The position numbers were made by a program, and so were the translations under genes. Shown here piece after piece: positions 141 through 43,578 of a DNA stretch of 64,000 bases (the first letter of the stretch is position 1; every line of letters starts with the position of its first letter). The stretch spans positions 1-64,000 of the forward strand of contig JAFRRN010000091.1 in NCBI GenBank assembly GCA_017428055.1, in the 5' to 3' direction. Under the pieces are notes generated by a model. The model was not told the DNA's origin. It made no database searches and was given only the letters and a program-made list of their open reading frames with translations. The DNA comes from Prevotella sp. (GTDB lineage Bacteria > Bacteroidota > Bacteroidia > Bacteroidales > Bacteroidaceae).

Positions 141-310
141 GGTATTACAGAGAAAAGAAGAATGAATTGGCTATCACATTTGGTGCATTGGCATTGCTAT
201 TCCAACCATTCGTCAAGGTGGCACTTGGCAGGATGATGTGGAATGTAGTTGATGTTATTGTCGCCATCCTACTTATCGCATTATACTTAAGAGAGGGGAA
301 AGAAGTATGA
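141..310 (+). pseudogene. 3' fragment of a DUF6804-like membrane protein gene
   Basis: From about 141 the frame reads RYYREKKNELAITFGALALL, then a second hydrophobic stretch with WNVVDVIVAILLIAL, ending at a TGA at 310. This resembles the C-terminal half of the small multi-pass DUF6804 proteins. The open frame extends left to an ATG at 29, but those residues are Cys/His-rich, do not look membrane-like and fall inside the IS-like end. I therefore read this as a gene cut by the insertion rather than an intact 93-residue protein. Confidence 0.5.
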
Positions 311-365
311 TGGAAGATGAGTTCAGATAGAGAAAATATCGAATAGAACAAAACATTATATAAAT

Positions 366-917
366 ATGAATGAGATTCAGAACATAGTAACGAAGGAGGG
401 TATGGAAAGCCTTTATGTCAGTGTAAGGGAAATGCTTGCCAATGCCAGAAAGCGGGCTTATACAGCAGTAAACTATGCCATGGTGGAAAGCTACTGGCTC
501 ATTGGTCAGCAAATTGTAGAGCATGAGCAACATGGCGAGGCAAGGGCTGATTATGGCAAGGGGGTTCCTGAGGGAGTTGGCAGCAAAACTGACAACAGAC
601 TTTGGCAAGGGGTTTGACGAGAGCAATCTTAGATATATGCGCTTGTTTTACAGGTGTTTCCCGATTCGTGACACACTGCGTCACGAATTGACATGGTCGC
701 ATTATCGCCGCCTGATTAGCGTGGATGATGAGAATGCTCGCCTATGGTACATGAATGAGGCCGCTAATAGTGTGTGGAACACAAGGCAGATGAAAAGAGT
801 GAGGCTATCGTAAAGTACTCCGTATTGAATGAGGGCAAGCAACTCTTCGCCTCTCGATATAAGCTCTATTTGCCTACAGAAGATGAGTTCAAACACATGT
901 TGGAATCATTAGAATGA
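366..917 (+). pseudogene. Broken DUF1016 (YhcG-like) nuclease gene
   Basis: The first frame (366 to about 560) encodes MNEIQNIVTKEGMESLYVSV and continues with the DUF1016 N-terminal features AVNYAMVESYWLIGQQIVEHEQ. A +1 shift near 560 moves the reading to a second frame with DFGKGFDESNLRYMRLFY and RHELTWSHYRRLI. About residue 130 the text jumps from YMNEAANSVWNTRQ straight to the C-terminal end KYSVLNEGKQLFASRYKLYL, stop at 917. Intact family members are about 350 residues; only about 184 codons remain, and the PD-(D/E)XK nuclease core is missing. Intact relatives are common in restriction and defence islands. It is not functional as it stands. Confidence 0.75.
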
Positions 918-967
918 TTATCGTTGAGTCAAAACGAAAAAAGCCGGCGACGATATTGAAGAAGTAA
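914..967 (+). pseudogene. 17-codon start remnant of a DUF6939-like gene
   Basis: The ATG at 914 overlaps the stop of the DUF1016 remnant as ATGA. It opens MIIVESKRKKPATILKK and stops at 965-967. The MIIVES(K/R)RKK opening is what I recall for DUF6939-type proteins, which are many times longer. ATGA coupling suggests an original operon with the DUF1016 gene. The match is short, so the family name is tentative. Confidence 0.35.
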
Positions 968-1002
968 GTGAACAATTGTAGAAATAATAACGCTTAAACA
1001 AT

Positions 1003-1133
1003 ATGGATAAGGAGAATAAGATAATACTGTATAAGGACGAGAACGGCAGGGTGAGTGCGAAATGTGAATGTTGGGGAGTGACTTCGACAAAGTTATCATG
1101 CAACTGAATATCTTGGGGAACGATGGAGAATAA
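1003..1133 (+). pseudogene. Internally deleted RhuM-like gene remnant
   Basis: The ATG at 1003 opens MDKENKIILYKDENGRVSAK, like the start of RhuM-family proteins found next to restriction genes. The homology stops after about 20 codons. A different frame then reads SDFDKVIMQL before a TAA at 1131-1133, resembling the family's C-terminal end. Start and end appear kept with the middle lost, as in the DUF1016 remnant. RhuM proteins are normally over 300 residues. Confidence 0.45.
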
Positions 1134-1144
1134 AAAGGAAAACC

Positions 1145-2548
1145 ATGAATATTGAAAAGATAAAAAAGTACAAGCAAGATTTCCTCCACTGGCTCTATGA
1201 CGTGAAAGATAGCATGAAGGAAAAAGGTGGGTTAACAGAAATCATCATTACATTTATCATCAGCCTTCTCATCTTTCCGTTTGTGTTAGTATATTACCTT
1301 ATCATTAAACCTATATTCAATAGTATCTTAACGCTAATTGACATGAGGAAAATCGGTCTGAAGAAAGCATTTCGCAAGCATTTCTATGACGAAGATGGCA
1401 AGTATGATTATGAGGCAGAGAAAGAATTAGAAAAACGGCTCACCCTTGACCATGAGTTGCACAAGACATTCCATGCCAAGGATTTGTGGCCTGATGCCGT
1501 GGTGAAAGACGGCATGGCTCTCTATGGCGTAGAAGGCCGCACCCTCCTCTATGTGCATGAGGATGTGGAAGAGTTTGAAATACCTGATGGCGTGGTGAAT
1601 GTATATCATAAATGCTTCCATCTTTGCACCAAATTGAAGAAAGTGACTTTTCCTTCCACGATACAAAGGATTGGCAACCAAGCTTTCTCTGGTTGCATAT
1701 CGTTGCGAGAAATGGCAATACCAGAATCGGTGATATCCATTGGCGATGCCGTATTCAAGAATTGCGTAGCCCTGGAATCGGTCACCCTCCCATCAATGAT
1801 GATTGAAATTACAGAGAACATGTTTGAAAATTGCAGGTCATTAAAGACCCTCACCCTTCCCAAGGAAATCATCATGATTTGCAAAAAGGCATTCAAACAT
1901 TGCATATCATTAGAACACATTGAGCTAAATGACAAGCTTGAAATGATTCGCGAAAAGGCATTTGAGGATTGCTGGTCATTGAAAGAATTGATCATGCCCG
2001 ACAGCGTTAGATTCATTGAGGAGGGTACTTTGAATAACTGTTATGCACTGGAAAAGCTGCACATATCGAAGATCATGAAAAACTTTGGTGGCAGTTGCTG
2101 TGAGAATTGTTGGAGTCTGAGAGAAGTAACGATGACAAAAGACGATAATTTCATTGCTTGGAGACATAAAGATTGGGAAGAACATGCCAAAACCGTCAAG
2201 CCAGAAGATTCCGAATGCCCATATCCTGAAAACATTTATTGGAGTGACGGAAAGGCAGTATATGTCAACATACCCCGCTTGTCTAACGTCGTCCTTGTCC
2301 TTTGTCTGTCGAAAGAGGAGGAATTCACCATACCAGACTTTGTGGCAGAGGTCAAGCAATTTGCCTTTACAACCTGCAAAAAACTTCATCGCCTACGGTT
2401 AAGTCCACGATTGCACCCGAAAGCAAGGAATTGGAGCGAGATGAGTTATATCAATCATGAGTTTATCTATGAGTGTTGGCCTCAGGTCGATGAGATTTTT
2501 TTCGATAAAAGTCTCGACCATAAACCGTTTGACATGCATTACATATAA
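1145..2548 (+). CDS. Membrane-anchored BspA-type leucine-rich-repeat protein
   Basis: A 467-residue protein. A hydrophobic segment at about residues 32-60 (IIITFIISLLIFPFVLVYYL) is most likely a transmembrane anchor; there is no clear cleavable signal peptide. A charged stretch follows. From about residue 140 to 330 come roughly eight repeats of about 23 residues of the BspA/LRR_5 kind, with AFxxCxSLxxxxxPxSVxxI periodicity (for example AFSGCISLREMAIPESVISI). A more divergent C-terminal part ends the protein. Such repeats mediate protein binding and occur in Bacteroidales adhesins, but the partner here is unknown. It starts 11 bases after the RhuM-like remnant and is followed 21 bases later by an unrecognised gene, probably co-transcribed. 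Confidence 0.75.
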   Translation: MNIEKIKKYKQDFLHWLYDVKDSMKEKGGLTEIIITFIISLLIFPFVLVYYLIIKPIFNSILTLIDMRKIGLKKAFRKHFYDEDGKYDYEAEKELEKRLTLDHELHKTFHAKDLWPDAVVKDGMALYGVEGRTLLYVHEDVEEFEIPDGVVNVYHKCFHLCTKLKKVTFPSTIQRIGNQAFSGCISLREMAIPESVISIGDAVFKNCVALESVTLPSMMIEITENMFENCRSLKTLTLPKEIIMICKKAFKHCISLEHIELNDKLEMIREKAFEDCWSLKELIMPDSVRFIEEGTLNNCYALEKLHISKIMKNFGGSCCENCWSLREVTMTKDDNFIAWRHKDWEEHAKTVKPEDSECPYPENIYWSDGKAVYVNIPRLSNVVLVLCLSKEEEFTIPDFVAEVKQFAFTTCKKLHRLRLSPRLHPKARNWSEMSYINHEFIYECWPQVDEIFFDKSLDHKPFDMHYI

Positions 2549-2569
2549 AGAAGTGGAGGGAACAGCATC

Positions 2570-3682
2570 ATGATAGATAATGCAGACGTTAAATGTAGGG
2601 CACAGTCATGCTTGGTGGAATTCAAGGGGTTAACCTTTGGGGATTTCCAAAGAGCTATCTACATAGAGAATGAGTACGACCCTCGTGTCAATCGCTATTT
2701 GCGTTGGAATCGCCGCTATCTCCAAAAACATGTTTTCCATACTTACAAGGGGGGATATACCGACCTTTATTATCTTCCTCATGAAGTAAAGAAACTAAAA
2801 CAAAGGAAACAACTCTTATATCGATGTCCTTTCCTCTCACAAGACCAGTTAAAACAGACCCATTCCATCGGTACAGAGTTTTTCCTCCAGTATCTCGCCG
2901 ACCCCGATGATGCACGTTTCCTCAAGCCCGGCTTTCTCTTCTACAGGGGCAGTAAGCCTAATGGCATAACAGTTTATGAATATTATCCTCTGTTCACGAA
3001 CGTACCTGTCAAGATTAAGAAGCTGATCAAGGAAATCCTTAAAGCGCATCATGAGAAGATTGACCATTACAGACATGAGGAGAGTTTTATCCATGGGGGT
3101 GACCGTTATGGACAAGGTCTTTTCATGACATACGAACCCACTGACGAGAATCTTGCCGATAGGAAATTTCACGAACACGACGTAAAGATTTCCTCGCTAT
3201 TAGTAAAGCTTGAGAAGAATGTGCAAGAGCTCAAACAATATGGTGTGCCGATGACAGTATTAGAAGAAATCATCCATCAAGATGACATCATCAGCAGACT
3301 TGTCATCACCAAAGACCATCGAATCTTCTTACCCGAATACCATAACATGGAAATCAAGATGGAACCATTGGTCAAGGCTGTTTTTTTCTTGTTCCTCAAA
3401 CATCGAGAGGGAATCATCTTCAAGTATCTGCCTGACTATCGGGAGGAACTGATGAGCATCTACAAGGAACTGCGCCCGTTGGGATTGAGCAAGAAGACCA
3501 TCCAAAGCATCGAGGACGTGACCAATCCCTGCCTCAATTCCATCAACGAGAAATGCGCCCGCATCCACGCAGCCTTCACCAAGGAGTTTGACGACCATTT
3601 GGCACAGAACTATTACATCACCGGCAAGAGAGGAATGGAAAAGAAGATTTCCCTTCCAAGGGATATGGTTGTATGGGAATGA
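2570..3682 (+). CDS. Unrecognised 370-residue protein
   Basis: No family recognised. There is no signal peptide or membrane segment. It is rich in Lys, Tyr, His and Phe, with an N-terminal region of many aromatic residues (RWNRRYLQKHVFHTYKGGY) and a C-terminal region containing HREGIIFKYLPDYREEL, probably helical. The start at 2570 follows a purine-rich GGAGGGAAC about 8 bases upstream. It lies 21 bases after the leucine-rich-repeat gene on the same strand, suggesting a shared transcript, while the next gene has its own promoter. Function unknown. Confidence 0.7.
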   Translation: MIDNADVKCRAQSCLVEFKGLTFGDFQRAIYIENEYDPRVNRYLRWNRRYLQKHVFHTYKGGYTDLYYLPHEVKKLKQRKQLLYRCPFLSQDQLKQTHSIGTEFFLQYLADPDDARFLKPGFLFYRGSKPNGITVYEYYPLFTNVPVKIKKLIKEILKAHHEKIDHYRHEESFIHGGDRYGQGLFMTYEPTDENLADRKFHEHDVKISSLLVKLEKNVQELKQYGVPMTVLEEIIHQDDIISRLVITKDHRIFLPEYHNMEIKMEPLVKAVFFLFLKHREGIIFKYLPDYREELMSIYKELRPLGLSKKTIQSIEDVTNPCLNSINEKCARIHAAFTKEFDDHLAQNYYITGKRGMEKKISLPRDMVVWE

Positions 3683-38575: not shown

Positions 38576-38636
38576 CATATTTTAAGAAAAAACTTGTTAA
38601 AAGAGCAAAAAAAATGAATGCGAAAATGATTTGTGG

Positions 38637-38670
38637 AAATATCGTCCAAAAGATGAAAATATCGTCTAAA
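38637..38670. promoter_or_regulatory. Two direct repeats, candidate operator
   Basis: AAATATCGTCYAAA occurs at 38637-38650 and again at 38657-38670, exactly 20 bases apart (two helical turns). The second copy ends 23 bases before the -33 element of the rightward promoter. This is the layout expected for an AraC-type activator such as the nearby HTCS. Confidence 0.55.
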
Positions 38671-38693
38671 CAGACCTTTTTTAAACGTATTTG

Positions 38694-38725
38694 TTTGGAA
38701 CATATATATTTTTTTCATAGTTTTG
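38694..38725 (+). promoter_or_regulatory. Promoter of the DUF4859-like gene
   Basis: TTTG (38694-38697), 20 bases, TAGTTTTG (38718-38725) and C; about 44 bases upstream of the ATG at 38770. Confidence 0.75.
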
Positions 38726-38769
38726 CGAAAACATTTGACGAAATATTTATTAACTCAAAATTATTATAC

Positions 38770-41208
38770 ATGATGATGACTACTACTCATTTAAGAAACC
38801 TGCTCTTAGCAGTGATGTGCCTGTTCACGGGAATGGCGGCACAGGCGCAGTTTACGGGGACTATTGAATTGCCAGTCTCCGCAAAGAACTTCACCACCAA
38901 TGCCATTAGCTTCAAGCTGTCGGAGGTGGCCGCCACGGTGGAAACCGATGCTGCCACGCTCGCCGCAGCCCTTGACGCTTGGGAGGCTGGCACCAATGAC
39001 ATGTTCTTCCTCGTAAACCCACAAGACAATTCCCTGCAAAACAACTACACCCAGGGCGGCAAGGGCGGCTTCTGGGTGACGGCAGAAGGCATCGCCGAGC
39101 CTTGGGGCACGGAAGGCCTGACATGGTTCAACACCATCGGATGGGACGTGGAGGCTGACGAATTTGTTATCACGATGGGGCAATACCCTGATGTATCAAA
39201 GGAGGGAGACCAATACCCAGCGCAGTTCGTCCTGCAATACGGCGAGAAGCAAGCCACGTTCAACGTGACGCTCTCCATGACCGCGACGGAGGATATTGAT
39301 GCCCCAGAGCCAGCCACCGTGATTGAAAAAGACTTGAACATCGTCGGTGAGGCCTCTGTTGACGTGACACGCATGACCACGCAAGGTTACGAGGCAACCG
39401 CCGTGAAGATGGAACTGCCCGGCATAGCAGAGAAATTCGGCATCACAATGAATATGCTTGGCAAGGTGTTGGACGACATCCTTTACACTCCACACATCGA
39501 TGCTTATGGTGGAAAGTTAGACTCACTGACCAACGAGAGCACGGCAGGTGCGCCGGGATGGTGGTATAGCCGTCAGTCAGAAGATGAAACGGGCAACATC
39601 CCCAACGAGGTGGTTGCTGACGGATACGGTGCATCGAGCTTGTACTTCACAGAGGGATTCAAGATTGAGGATGACTCTCTCGCCTTCAACCTCGGACAAT
39701 ATCCTGGCCATATAAGCGGAAATGAGACATTATATAATAATGTATACATTATGTATGGAGATAAGGCTTACCGAATTCGCGTAAATGTGACATTTGAGAA
39801 GCCCGAATGGAAAGGCTTGGATGAAATGACGAAGGTAGGCGAGAAGCAATTTGAGATCTCGCAAGCCATCAATACTGGTTATAATACCACGACCATCTAC
39901 CTGCCCGTAGAGGAAATCGAGACAGGATTAGGATGTGCTTTGAGCGAGGCAAGCTTCATGGCCATCGACAACAATGGCGACCTCTCTGGCAACATGACTG
40001 CTGAGTCGCGCGGCTACTGGTTAGATGCTGGCGGACAGATCTGCTCTTGGGGATCCACGGCTGCAATGTACGTTCTCCCCGTTGAAGACACCGACGTGTC
40101 GAGCCTCAATGTGGCACAGATGCCCAATGGTGCGCTGAAGATTGGCGACGTGTGCAATGCCAACCTTTACCTCGTCAACTCGAACAACGGTACATATTAC
40201 CAAATCGGCATCCAGTTGACCGTGACTGACAAGCAAGCCATCGAAGACCTTTATACCATCGTGGCAACCCGTACGGCTTTGGTGCAAACTTTGGTCACTT
40301 CTAACTATTCAGTATCAAACACCTATACCTTGCCCACTGAGCAGATTGAAGAACTCCTTGGCATCCGCAATCCTAAACTGTATGCAGCCGACTCCACCTT
40401 TGCCACCACGGGTAGCAAGTATTCTGATGCGTATAGCTGCGACCCGAAGCCTGGCTTCTGGTTGAGCAAAGACGGCTATGCTTCTGTTTGGAGTTCCGAA
40501 TCGCCCGTAGGCATTTCCATGCTCCAGTCTGGCGGCGAGGCAACAGGCGTGTTCCAGTTGTTCCAATATCCTGGAGCCAACAACGTGGGTGATGTGTTCA
40601 AGGCTTCTCTCTTCATGGCAAACGACGAGACGAAGAAGATGATTCAGATTAACTTCACCGTGCAATTCGTGGCAGACCTTATCGACTACGAGACGGTAGG
40701 CGAAGAGTCAATCCTCCTCCCCGTTGACATGGCTGACATGGTTATCGACATTGACTTGCAGAAAGCCGCCACGGCATTGGAGACCACAGTGGATAACTTG
40801 ATGGATGGATATAAACTGAAAGGCATGGCAGAGACATCACTCTATGGCGAGGGATTCAACCCCGTGGAGAACGGCTTGTCATTCAACATTGCCAATGGCG
40901 CATACGATGAACTCGGACAAATCCACCTGCTCTTCGTTCAAGAGGGCGACGGATATGTCATCGACATCATTTCCGACGAGGAAGTGGAAGATGGCTACCG
41001 CACAGAGGGTGACATGTGCTTTGAAATCGACACCAAGCGCTACGTCTACCACCTCACATTCGTTGACCCTGAGACATATACTGGCATCAGCAATGTGGTG
41101 GAGAAGAATGGCAAGGACGGCAAGACCTACGACTTGAGCGGACGTATGGTCAACAATCCAGCCAAGGGCATCTATATCCAGAACGGCAAGAAATACGTAG
41201 TAAAGTAA
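38770..41208 (+). CDS. Secreted four- to five-repeat protein (DUF4859-like) with T9SS-type tail
   Basis: 812 residues from the ATG at 38770; the open frame extends upstream, but through a strong promoter. Signal peptide: NLLLAVMCLFTGMAAQAQ. Four repeats of about 130-160 residues follow, each starting with a beta-strand/LP segment (FKLSEVAAT, KMELPGIAEKF, IYLPVEEIETGL, YTLPTEQIEELL), then an aromatic (G)(F/Y)W turn (GGFWVT, PGWWYS, RGYWLD, PGFWLS) and a Q(Y/M)P motif. A partial fifth unit follows. The tail YDLSGRMVNNPAKGIYIQNG is the Prevotella form of a T9SS sorting end. It resembles DUF4859 proteins. No catalytic motif was seen; a surface binding role beside the divergent HExxH protein is inferred. 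Confidence 0.75.
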   Translation: MMMTTTHLRNLLLAVMCLFTGMAAQAQFTGTIELPVSAKNFTTNAISFKLSEVAATVETDAATLAAALDAWEAGTNDMFFLVNPQDNSLQNNYTQGGKGGFWVTAEGIAEPWGTEGLTWFNTIGWDVEADEFVITMGQYPDVSKEGDQYPAQFVLQYGEKQATFNVTLSMTATEDIDAPEPATVIEKDLNIVGEASVDVTRMTTQGYEATAVKMELPGIAEKFGITMNMLGKVLDDILYTPHIDAYGGKLDSLTNESTAGAPGWWYSRQSEDETGNIPNEVVADGYGASSLYFTEGFKIEDDSLAFNLGQYPGHISGNETLYNNVYIMYGDKAYRIRVNVTFEKPEWKGLDEMTKVGEKQFEISQAINTGYNTTTIYLPVEEIETGLGCALSEASFMAIDNNGDLSGNMTAESRGYWLDAGGQICSWGSTAAMYVLPVEDTDVSSLNVAQMPNGALKIGDVCNANLYLVNSNNGTYYQIGIQLTVTDKQAIEDLYTIVATRTALVQTLVTSNYSVSNTYTLPTEQIEELLGIRNPKLYAADSTFATTGSKYSDAYSCDPKPGFWLSKDGYASVWSSESPVGISMLQSGGEATGVFQLFQYPGANNVGDVFKASLFMANDETKKMIQINFTVQFVADLIDYETVGEESILLPVDMADMVIDIDLQKAATALETTVDNLMDGYKLKGMAETSLYGEGFNPVENGLSFNIANGAYDELGQIHLLFVQEGDGYVIDIISDEEVEDGYRTEGDMCFEIDTKRYVYHLTFVDPETYTGISNVVEKNGKDGKTYDLSGRMVNNPAKGIYIQNGKKYVVK

Positions 41209-41285: not shown

Positions 41286-42425
41286 TTATCCCTTCCCAAA
41301 ATAACGCAGAAAAAGGTCTTTATAATAATCTTTTATAACTGGCCATGTAGCTCGAGGAGATGCAAGAAAACACCAAAACTTCAATTTATTGAAATAGACA
41401 GCCGTCATCCATTTATGGACAATAACACCCTTCTTCACACTGTCTATGACCATATGCTGGTATTGTTCTTGACCAAAATTACCATACTCCATGGCGATGG
41501 AAGCCAATTTCTCACCCAAGAATCTTTTTCTATTGCTATACAAAGGACATTTTTCCCGTGGAAGACCTAATTGATCTACAGCCACATGACCGAAAGCCCT
41601 CCATACTCCCAATAAACCAAAACGTTGAAGAAGCGATTTCAATTCTTCCTTATCCAAGCAATCTGCCACTTGATAAAGGCACATCGTCCAGTCGCAGAAC
41701 TGGCGGATGCCAGTGCCACCTTTAACAAAATGCCACCACAGATGCTGCATAACAAAAATGGCATCAAATAATTCAGAGGGTATTGTAACGTCTATCTCTC
41801 CTATTCGTAAGAGGCGGTTGTGGCCTGAATTGAGTTCTTTTTCCGTCCATTCATACAATGCTTTGTTGTCCTTAGTATCCACAAGGTCAATCGCTGTGCG
41901 GTGCAGCTCCACCTCTATACCCTGCCATCTCATATTGCCATGTTTCTCATTGCCATTTGAGTCATCCTCAAACTGATTGTATTCCTTTAACATGGCAAAT
42001 GCTTTATCTGCATAATCCTTGCCCAAGTACAAGTCAATATCGCCACAATAGCGAAATTCGGGTTTGAAATAATAAGCAGCAACGGCCTGGCCTTTCAATA
42101 AAATGGGTTCGATGCCTTTCTCTTTAAGCACATTTACGACACTGTTCAACGTAGGAATGACAGAATTAGTAACCCGTATAACAGAGAACTGAAGGGTGAC
42201 ACATTTATTAATTATTTCATTCGGCAATATATCCTCCCCTAATCCTAAATCTTCCAAACGACGGATGGCAGAAGCAACAAGGGATATTGTTCCTTGCTTT
42301 TCTGCTATGCGAAGAATATCACCCCAATCGACTCCTTTCTTAAAAAGACTCAAGTCTGCATCTGTATTCCACAGAGCAGACCTGAGAAGATGTAATGTCA
42401 ATTTCTCATTAGAAGTCATAATCAT
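41286..42425 (-). CDS. Nucleotidyltransferase family protein (PF14907-like)
   Basis: 379 residues. The centre carries PILLKGQAVAAYY and RYCGDIDLYLGKDYADKAF, where the DxD pair of a nucleotidyltransferase fold is visible, then IEVELHRTAID. This pattern matches the PF14907 family as I know it; members occur in some ribosomal-peptide (for example lasso) gene clusters as accessory tailoring enzymes. The gene overlaps the 3' end of the His-rich membrane gene by 17 bases, so they are one transcript. An ATG two codons in is an alternative start. The substrate is unknown; the divergent 52-residue peptide is a candidate. Confidence 0.75.
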   Translation of the reverse strand: MIMTSNEKLTLHLLRSALWNTDADLSLFKKGVDWGDILRIAEKQGTISLVASAIRRLEDLGLGEDILPNEIINKCVTLQFSVIRVTNSVIPTLNSVVNVLKEKGIEPILLKGQAVAAYYFKPEFRYCGDIDLYLGKDYADKAFAMLKEYNQFEDDSNGNEKHGNMRWQGIEVELHRTAIDLVDTKDNKALYEWTEKELNSGHNRLLRIGEIDVTIPSELFDAIFVMQHLWWHFVKGGTGIRQFCDWTMCLYQVADCLDKEELKSLLQRFGLLGVWRAFGHVAVDQLGLPREKCPLYSNRKRFLGEKLASIAMEYGNFGQEQYQHMVIDSVKKGVIVHKWMTAVYFNKLKFWCFLASPRATWPVIKDYYKDLFLRYFGKG

Positions 42426-43059
42426 TCACATCAAACCTGTCACGAAGAGTGACGATATAAAAGACCCCTACTGCAATACATGCCAAATCAGCATATATAT
42501 TCGCACCATTCAATCCGATAAGGCTTAAAGCCATGGATAAAATGATATATGTCATCATGGTAACTCCCAACTTAGCCATGCTATCACGGTATTTCTGTTT
42601 AAGCTTAAAACCTAATGCAAAATACGTAATGGTATTAGCCATATAGAAAAAAACGCCAGCGTCACCGAGGAAAGAAGTCCAATTGAACAATAAGCAGATA
42701 CAAGTCACTACATGGAATAATACAAAGAAAAAGATAGCAGCAATAAAATAGGGTTTTAAAGGATAACGCAAGGAAGCCATTCCCTTCATCAGACAATAAA
42801 GCAAGAATCCTTCACCAACCGTTCTCAAGAAATGAGCGAGTAGCACAAAAGATGTGCCATCTGACCCTAATACCGCTGAAATGCTGAAATTTGCCAAGAA
42901 AAAAAGCAACTGTCCTAACACGGCGGCGGTAAATGCCAAATTCAATACATTCTTACTTACATTTGTTTCTACTTGGTAAACATAGACATTTTCTGAACGA
43001 TGCTGTCCATGATGATGTCTATGCGAATGGCTGTGAGTTTTGTTTTCAGTTGATTCCAT
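42409..43059 (-). CDS. His-rich six-span membrane protein, unknown function
   Basis: 216 residues. The cytoplasmic or exposed N-terminus has a His cluster, HSHSHRHHHGQHRSE. About six transmembrane segments follow, such as LNLAFTAAVLGQLLFFLANF, YFIAAIFFFVLFHVVTCICL and MMTYIILSMALSLIGL. No family recognised. The His run could bind metal. It is the first gene of a two-gene unit with the nucleotidyltransferase and has its own promoter about 30 bases upstream, placed back to back with the promoter of the 52-residue peptide gene. Export or immunity for the peptide is a speculative role. Confidence 0.65.
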   Translation of the reverse strand: MESTENKTHSHSHRHHHGQHRSENVYVYQVETNVSKNVLNLAFTAAVLGQLLFFLANFSISAVLGSDGTSFVLLAHFLRTVGEGFLLYCLMKGMASLRYPLKPYFIAAIFFFVLFHVVTCICLLFNWTSFLGDAGVFFYMANTITYFALGFKLKQKYRDSMAKLGVTMMTYIILSMALSLIGLNGANIYADLACIAVGVFYIVTLRDRFDVNDYDF

Positions 43060-43087
43060 ATATATATTATTAATAATGTTTGATGTG

Positions 43088-43118
43088 CAAAATTACATTT
43101 TTTAAGATTATAAGCAAA
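43088..43118 (-). promoter_or_regulatory. Leftward promoter of the membrane protein/nucleotidyltransferase unit
   Basis: On the minus strand TTTG (43118-43115), 19 bases, TAATTTTG (43095-43088) and C. Confidence 0.8.
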
Positions 43119-43135
43119 ATTTTTTTATACATTTT

Positions 43136-43166
43136 TTTGGTAGTTAGAAAATAATATGTAATTTTG
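43136..43166 (+). promoter_or_regulatory. Rightward promoter of the 52-residue peptide gene
   Basis: TTTG (43136-43139), 19 bases, TAATTTTG (43159-43166) and C. Its -7 element is identical to that of the leftward promoter, and the two -33 elements are only 17 bases apart. The peptide leader would be about 90 bases. Confidence 0.8.
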
Positions 43167-43262
43167 CATCGAAAATAAGACATTTATAGTTCTCAACAAG
43201 ATGAGATTAATTGAAGTGTTAATATGAATTATTGATTTTTTCTTTTTTTAATTTTATATAAA

Positions 43263-43421
43263 ATGAAGAAAGCTTACGTATGTCCAAAAACAAGACCTTT
43301 GTCATTAGCACAAACGCTCATGCAATTACCTGATGCAAGCGGTACCAGCGTTGCTGGTGATGGTGCTCCTGTAATGGGTAACGATGTCAAAGGCACAGCT
43401 GCGTCTGGAAGACTGTGGTAA
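43263..43421 (+). CDS. 52-residue peptide, possible precursor of a modified peptide
   Basis: An ATG at 43263 opens MKKAYVCPKTRPLSLAQTLM and the frame ends at a TAA at 43419-43421, 52 codons. It has no hydrophobic signal, one cysteine near the N-terminus, and a Gly/Ala/Ser/Asp-rich C-terminal half (DASGTSVAGDGAPVMGN ... SGRLW). The MKKxYxxP opening occurs in many small Bacteroidales peptides of unknown role. It has its own promoter, a leader of about 90 bases without a Shine-Dalgarno (normal here) and a terminator. It is divergent from a nucleotidyltransferase and a membrane protein, which suggests a leader-plus-core precursor, but no core or modification site can be named. It could also simply be a small structural or stress peptide. 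Confidence 0.65.
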   Translation: MKKAYVCPKTRPLSLAQTLMQLPDASGTSVAGDGAPVMGNDVKGTAASGRLW

Positions 43422-43472
43422 TCAAATCACACGAACAGACTTGTTTTTAAATTCTAATTTAACTCACTTAAG

Positions 43473-43506
43473 TCCCGGTGGAAGCAAGACTCCCATCGGG
43501 ATTTTT
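43473..43506 (+). terminator. Intrinsic terminator of the 52-residue peptide gene
   Basis: TCCCGGTGG pairs with CCATCGGGA (one G-T wobble), followed by TTTTT, about 50 bases after the peptide stop. Confidence 0.85.
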
Positions 43507-43546: not shown

Positions 43547-43578
43547 TTTGCAATTAAAGAAAAAAATGATTATTTTTG
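43547..43578 (+). promoter_or_regulatory. Promoter of the topoisomerase IV operon
   Basis: TTTG (43547-43550), 20 bases, TATTTTTG (43571-43578) and C, 60 bases upstream of the start codon. Confidence 0.75.

Follow-up and report, generated by a model that had tools for sequence, protein, structure and literature searches.

What does a 52-codon gene do when it stands back to back with genes for a nucleotidyltransferase (NTase) and a His-rich membrane protein (MP)? This question is raised by a locus of a Prevotella sp. genome, in a stretch of 64,000 nucleotides (contig JAFRRN010000091.1, positions 1 to 64,000) that we analysed as a whole and refer to as the window. The window belongs to a 4.2 Mb assembly. 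An earlier note on this DNA had proposed a small modified-peptide system, with the NTase and the MP as its enzyme and membrane partner.

Organization of the divergent locus

The peptide gene is divergent to a two-gene unit of MP and NTase, whose ORFs overlap by 17 nt. The ORF list confirmed all three frames where the earlier note had placed them. The features of the locus are as follows:

43263..43421, + strand: peptide gene, a 52-codon small-protein gene (ORF list; syntenic orthologues with 65 and 62% identity in two species)
43136..43166, + strand: promoter of the peptide gene, Bacteroidota-type, TTTG-N19-TAATTTTG (pattern scan)
43088..43118, - strand: promoter of the MP/NTase unit, Bacteroidota-type, TTTG-N19-TAnnTTTG (pattern scan)
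43470..43506, + strand: terminator-like hairpin of the peptide gene (43470-43504) and T run (folding; stem kept in three species)
42409..43059, - strand: MP, 216 aa, His-rich N-terminus (ORF list)
41286..42425, - strand: NTase, 379 aa, PF14907, LKG...GDID motif (Pfam)
38614..41208, + strand: DUF4859 protein, context only, with the tail ...GIYIQNGKKYVVK and no peptide directly behind it (Pfam)

Sigma-70 promoter scans are ill-suited to Bacteroidota. The window contains 11 matches to the pattern TTTG-N18..21-TAnnTTTG, where 0.64 would be expected. Both promoters are of Bacteroidota type. As the earlier note had described, their TTTG elements lie 17 bases apart and the inner element, TAATTTTG, is common to both. 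In the sister species described below the inner element of the peptide promoter is TATCTTTG, and that of the MP/NTase promoter is identical across the three species. A third match to the pattern, at 43547-43578 and 5′ of parC, is apart from the peptide unit.

Judged from the promoter position, the untranslated leader of the peptide gene would be about 90 nt long. Its folding is at shuffle level (z 0.14), and Rfam reported two tRNAs and nothing else in the window. The terminator that had been assigned to the peptide gene was borne out by folding: the hairpin, followed by a T run, reaches -22 kcal/mol (z -4.1), and 1 of 200 shuffles was equally good. The hairpin at 43470-43504 is absent from the list of a consensus scan.

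Conservation of the peptide in sister species

A search of 398 congeneric genomes found orthologues of the peptide in two sister species, G329 (65% identity) and G407 (62%), and orthologues of the MP in the same two (73 and 70%). An MP orthologue is present in 3 of the 398 genomes, namely the window's own, G329 and G407, and all three also have the peptide and the NTase. In both sisters NTase, MP, peptide and parC follow each other in the window's order, with divergent promoters. Simple inheritance may account for this order, given the close relationship of the three species and a downstream flank, parC and the two genes after it, that is likewise syntenic. When 29 further stretches upstream of parC were examined (0.9-1.4 kb each; 23 congeneric, 6 from other genera), none held a start-motif peptide, an MP or an NTase; an old neighbourhood with parC was thereby ruled out, and the unit of NTase, MP and peptide looks confined in its distribution. 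Matches to the peptide in G035 and G037 (E 0.005-0.007) were discarded, since they fall in long frames that contain a stop. Behind the parC unit of G329 (L318, about 300-3500) we observed a short-repeat array in which the frames CISIYSYIKPQ and LWFDVGIDRYTT recur and which is CRISPR-like by eye.

Conserved residues, which the earlier note had proposed to look for in peptides beside homologues of the two partners, were found at both ends of the peptide in the three species. The first 13 residues are identical (window versus either sister: dN 0, dS 0.30). In the last 16 residues, 15 and 14 are common to the window and the sisters despite five synonymous codon changes per comparison (dN 0.03 and 0.09, dS 0.67 and 0.92). 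The middle of 22-23 codons is divergent: window and sisters have 5 residues in common there, with dN of 1.13 and 1.28 and dS of 1.00 and 1.17, which are rough values from few codons. Between the sisters 11 of 22 middle residues are common (dN 0.38, dS 1.6), and the ends carry too few changes to tell. Since the orthologues in two sister species keep their ends despite synonymous changes, the peptide gene is genuine, beyond chance.

As had been noted, the C-terminal half is rich in Gly, Ala and Ser, which make up 46% of the last 26 residues versus 19% of the first 26. Neither a signal peptide nor a double-glycine leader was seen in the peptide by eye. The peptide had no match under E 0.01 in family libraries including PHROGs and PADLOC, and a phage or defence gene was ruled out by the missing PHROGs and PADLOC matches at this threshold.

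A family of small proteins with an MKKxYxxP start

The MKKxYxxP opening of the peptide had struck the earlier reader as conserved. It is conserved, though not as a local oddity, for it marks a family across the genus. The back-translated pattern gave 16 matches in the window's own genome versus 0 for the reversed control, and 357 matches in 60 congeneric genomes versus 28 for the reversed pattern. The figure of 357 overstates the family, because 8 of 29 loci picked automatically from the 60-genome search are antisense-like MKKRY[LF]xPS frames. For a closer description we scanned 103 loci, comprising the window, 13 loci of its own genome, the 29 automatically picked new ones and 60 more taken in order among the matches listed, passing over antisense-like matches of the form MKKRY[LF]xPS and one match interrupted by a stop. 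Two of the 16 own-genome matches, one a 19-codon frame and one antisense-like, were left out. Of the 101 distinct ORFs 87 were kept; the 14 dropped were 8 antisense-like frames and 6 outside 36-110 aa.

Profile A1, built from 57 of 86 sampled peptides with the window's excluded, matched 33 places in the own genome, 27 of them at E<0.01, and 12 of the 33 were present by construction. In a draw across the order, 5 of 198 genomes, the own genome included, matched the family profile at E 1e-4. A named-genome search with one own-genome member returned a single locus (L304, a Bacteroidales MAG titled Tb.RUG.192), where the gene 12 nt upstream of the peptide again encodes a related tail. Family members have the MKKxYxxP start, a short alternating-hydrophobic stretch that often ends LLxxS-like, and a variable middle; a Trp is found within the last 14 residues of 57 of the 86 sampled members. 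A strict promoter lies within 300 nt of 4 of the 21 peptides without an upstream gene (window included) versus 1 of the 66 with one.

Of the 57 peptides scanned, none is described by a model in either Pfam or NCBIfam; Pfam gave one stray match (E 0.008) and NCBIfam gave zero. This appears to be a large, unmodelled small-protein family in Prevotella-like bacteria, marked genus-wide by its start. We found no description of it in a partial literature search that took in portions of PMC7533575, PMC10352776, PMC10202324, PMC7324362 and PMC9266682. Since this coverage is partial and one such paper catalogues thousands of small protein families, the negative result cannot establish the family as unreported.

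The family is not generally linked to the NTase or the MP

The assignment of the NTase to the PF14907 type was upheld (E 7.5e-31, 108 bits versus a cut-off of 31.2), and its DxD motif takes the form LKG...GDID. The MP gave nothing above cut-off in Pfam; a single-sequence model predicts six helices with low confidence (pLDDT 56.5). Among the flanking ORFs listed, part of them Pfam-scanned, we saw no PqqD, cyclase or protease, in agreement with the earlier note, and no radical SAM, YcaO, PCAT or ABC exporter gene.

That family peptides would stand beside homologues of the two partners proved true of the two sister species and, for a PF14907 gene, of one further locus, L150, but not of NTase and MP loci at large. 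The PF14907 sample consisted of 61 loci, i.e. the window and 60 of 96 rows. A profile match was found in 3 of the 61: in L150 at 16 nt, in the window at 838 nt and in L172 at 3.1 kb. A scan for the start motif gave the window, L150 and four chance-looking frames (L138, L143, L176, L186). A link of the peptide to PF14907 in general was ruled out by the 3/61 count. The peptide of L150 (9007-9216, genome G016), which begins MNKTYLRP, is the best profile match in the 61 loci; it follows a PF14907 gene in a polysaccharide-type neighbourhood. Such genes lie within 7 kb in 45 of the 61 loci, the window not among them, and one of two glycosyltransferase clusters is present in 33. Polysaccharide-type here means eight gene clusters, judged by representatives: glycosyltransferases, sugar transferases, hexapeptide transferases, polysaccharide synthesis, Wzz, sugar nucleotidyltransferase and DegT aminotransferase. 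The window NTase thus has its Pfam family in common with the NTases of congeneric polysaccharide loci, and differs from them in being paired with an MP and in lacking the polysaccharide-type clusters around it.

A link to the MP family in general was ruled out as well, with family peptides in 1 of 12 other MP loci and none adjacent there. L325 has two family peptides, 2.4 and 5.7 kb from its MP homologue and neither adjacent to it. Near an MP paralogue of the own genome (L039) a family peptide lies 2.5 kb off, downstream of a tail gene of its own. Two MP paralogues of double length are encoded in the own genome, at L039:10525-11865 and L040:9910-11235, with no adjoining NTase. In another genome (L322:4969-6899) a PF14907 NTase is followed by an MP homologue with 23 nt between them, an order opposite to that in the window. 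The NTase/MP pair therefore recurs where the peptide is absent, and the peptide family occurs independently of the pair. The MP homologues of L322, L323, L324, L325 and L326 have a CxxC...CxxC zinc-ribbon-like start where the window protein has its His-rich stretch. The sequence suggests that the MP N-terminus may be metal-binding.

Most sampled family members follow a gene for a tail-bearing protein

For 66 of the 87 peptides, an ORF of 120 aa or more on the same strand ends 3-137 nt upstream. Sixty-one of these 66 upstream genes, which corresponds to 61/87 peptides, encode a GxYIxNGKKxxxK-like tail, for example GIYIVNGKKVVVK; the tail was called with a regular expression of our own, and 29 of the 66 upstream frames are truncated by the locus edge. 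Two further peptides (L207, L241) lie behind a shortened tail ORF. In the own genome a tail gene stands in front of 25 of the 30 profile-match loci examined, where tails were called by eye, the misparsed L277 was counted as a miss, and 3 of the 33 matches, the window's included, fell outside the 30. Family peptides in L076, L198 and L214 lie behind products ending in VRPVFEF or IRLVFRF, not in the usual tail.

Related partners carry related peptides, with a weak correlation. The Mantel comparison of peptide and partner relatedness gave small values of r: 0.09 for the partner body, a value reached in 6 of 500 permutations, and 0.12 for the tail, reached in 2 of 500. The pairing is one-way: in the 61 loci centred on an NTase there are 4 tail genes that no peptide-like ORF follows.

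Sixteen aligned tails have invariant Gly, Asn and Lys positions. Pfam gave nothing convincing for the tails, and none of six partner proteins had a Pfam or NCBIfam match under E 0.01. Searched against solved chains, the tail profile matched an arabinanase (4kca, 1.1e-8) and a beta-helix protein (7jvi, 2.6e-7). SprA, which we take to be the translocon of type IX secretion, is present in 59 of 60 genomes. In the sole genome of the 60 that is without it (G010), a tail gene lies upstream of 0 of 3 pattern peptides. By their sequence the tails would be type-IX-like, short of proof. Their invariant residues and the presence of SprA resemble what is seen for type IX cargo with a type A sorting tail (TIGR04183, Por_Secre_tail), whereas TIGR04183 itself touches only 2 of the 16 partner tails, with a best E of 0.048. 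A small gene behind the cargo is a further difference, as none was found in the accessible part of a review of this system (PMC10202324).

The window copy is probably a diverged member

The window peptide carries the family start, yet over the whole genome it is the weakest of the 33 matches to profile A1 (E 0.53). A profile of 86 peptides that was built without the window copy finds it at 18.5 bits (E 0.0007), second to L150, in a search space of 4572 short ORFs from the 61 loci. Shuffles that preserve its first 8 residues reach its score in 4 of 2000 cases; for residues 9 to the end 62 of 2000 are as good (33 to 37 of 1000 in a separate run). The G329 orthologue is matched by 0 of 2000 shuffles, with or without the first 8 residues, and has GIMVGS at the position of the family's LLxxS. 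For the G407 orthologue the counts are 7 of 2000 with the start kept and 222 of 2000 without the first 8 residues. Behind residue 20 the window copy has a net charge of -1 versus a family median of -7, so that strong acidity is absent. No tail gene lies directly upstream of it; the nearest ends 2 kb off, with the inverted MP/NTase unit between. We judge the window copy to be a diverged, separately promoted orphan of the MKKxYxxP family.

Possible roles of the peptide

In the modified-peptide system of the earlier note, the PF14907 enzyme would nucleotidylate or glycosylate the conserved C-terminus, and the MP would export or anchor the product. Such a system is possible, if rather improbable, because enzyme and membrane protein are kept beside the peptide in three related species with divergent promoters, because a family peptide directly follows an NTase in L150, and because PsmN, a nucleotidyltransferase-type protein, is reported in the available part of its description to put hexoses on the tail of a lasso peptide (PMC9266682). 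The adjacency of NTase and MP in L322 would suit it too, as would the conserved N-terminus, the almost unchanged C-terminal 16 residues and the conserved Thr and Ser in the C-terminal KGTAASGR[LM]W. What did not stand is the wider association: the profile match in 3/61 PF14907 loci, the polysaccharide-type genes near 45 of these 61, the lack of a further gene for modification or export in the list of flanking ORFs and the tie of the family to tail-bearing genes (61/87) all argue against modification by this enzyme.

The variable middle could also be released as a species-specific message, with the tail proteins unrelated. Many diverse copies per genome and a dN above dS in the middle between window and sisters would agree with such a signal, but we consider it unlikely: inspection by eye showed no signal peptide or double-glycine leader, few parts of the peptide are as conserved as the C-terminus, and between the sisters dN in the middle is below dS, in ratios that are rough for so few codons. 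It is still more doubtful that the locus works chiefly through its transcript, as a regulatory or leader RNA of the divergent unit or of parC, with the peptide as a by-product. The gene does have its own promoter, a leader of about 90 nt and a terminator hairpin; against an RNA role stand the coding constraint at both peptide ends, seen between the window and either sister, the shuffle-level folding of the leader and the Rfam result of two tRNAs only. A spurious open frame, to which the short length and the want of a family-library match under E 0.01 might point, is contradicted by orthologues with conserved ends, by the promoter and by the terminator, and we give it hardly any credence.

We prefer to see the window gene as a small protein of the tail-gene-linked family, whose members would be cytoplasmic accessories of surface proteins, and the NTase and MP as a separate envelope unit; we hold the chances of this to be about even. 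Most sampled members come second in a gene pair, the first gene encoding a large protein with the short GxYIxNGKKxxxK tail that resembles a type IX sorting tail. They would be co-produced with the surface proteins and act as small cytoplasmic accessory proteins, with conserved ends that may contact a shared partner, e.g. the tail or the export path. Such a role, with docking to a common partner, would fit the conserved ends around a divergent middle in the window orthologues and the weak tendency of related partners to have related peptides. The window copy would be a diverged orphan under its own promoter, and the divergent NTase and MP, as a separate envelope unit, may share control with it via the 17-base gap between the promoters. 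More tentatively, and with a probability well short of even, the peptides could form a genus-wide class of cargo-paired small proteins whose ends dock common machinery and whose middle is tuned to the cargo, the orphan of this small clade having been taken over by NTase and MP as a dedicated substrate or regulator.

This genome has about thirty such small genes and its relatives have many more; they mostly travel with large secreted-type proteins and are without a Pfam or NCBIfam model. Should these peptides help to export, anchor or control surface proteins, they would supply a missing component of the envelope biology of these bacteria. The gene pairing makes an accessory role directly testable, gene by gene.

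Comparison with known peptide clusters

The GG-leader RiPP clusters of Bacteroidales, as far as the consulted sections of PMC10352776 describe them, differ from the window locus, which has no nearby radical SAM, YcaO or PCAT gene and no double-glycine by eye; what they have in common with it is a small precursor-like peptide in Bacteroidales. The pseudomycoidin lasso clusters, which contain a kinase and the nucleotidyltransferase PsmN, differ in that cyclase, protease and PqqD were not seen at the window locus. In the portion of PMC9266682 at hand, their likeness to it is a small peptide adjoining a nucleotidyltransferase.
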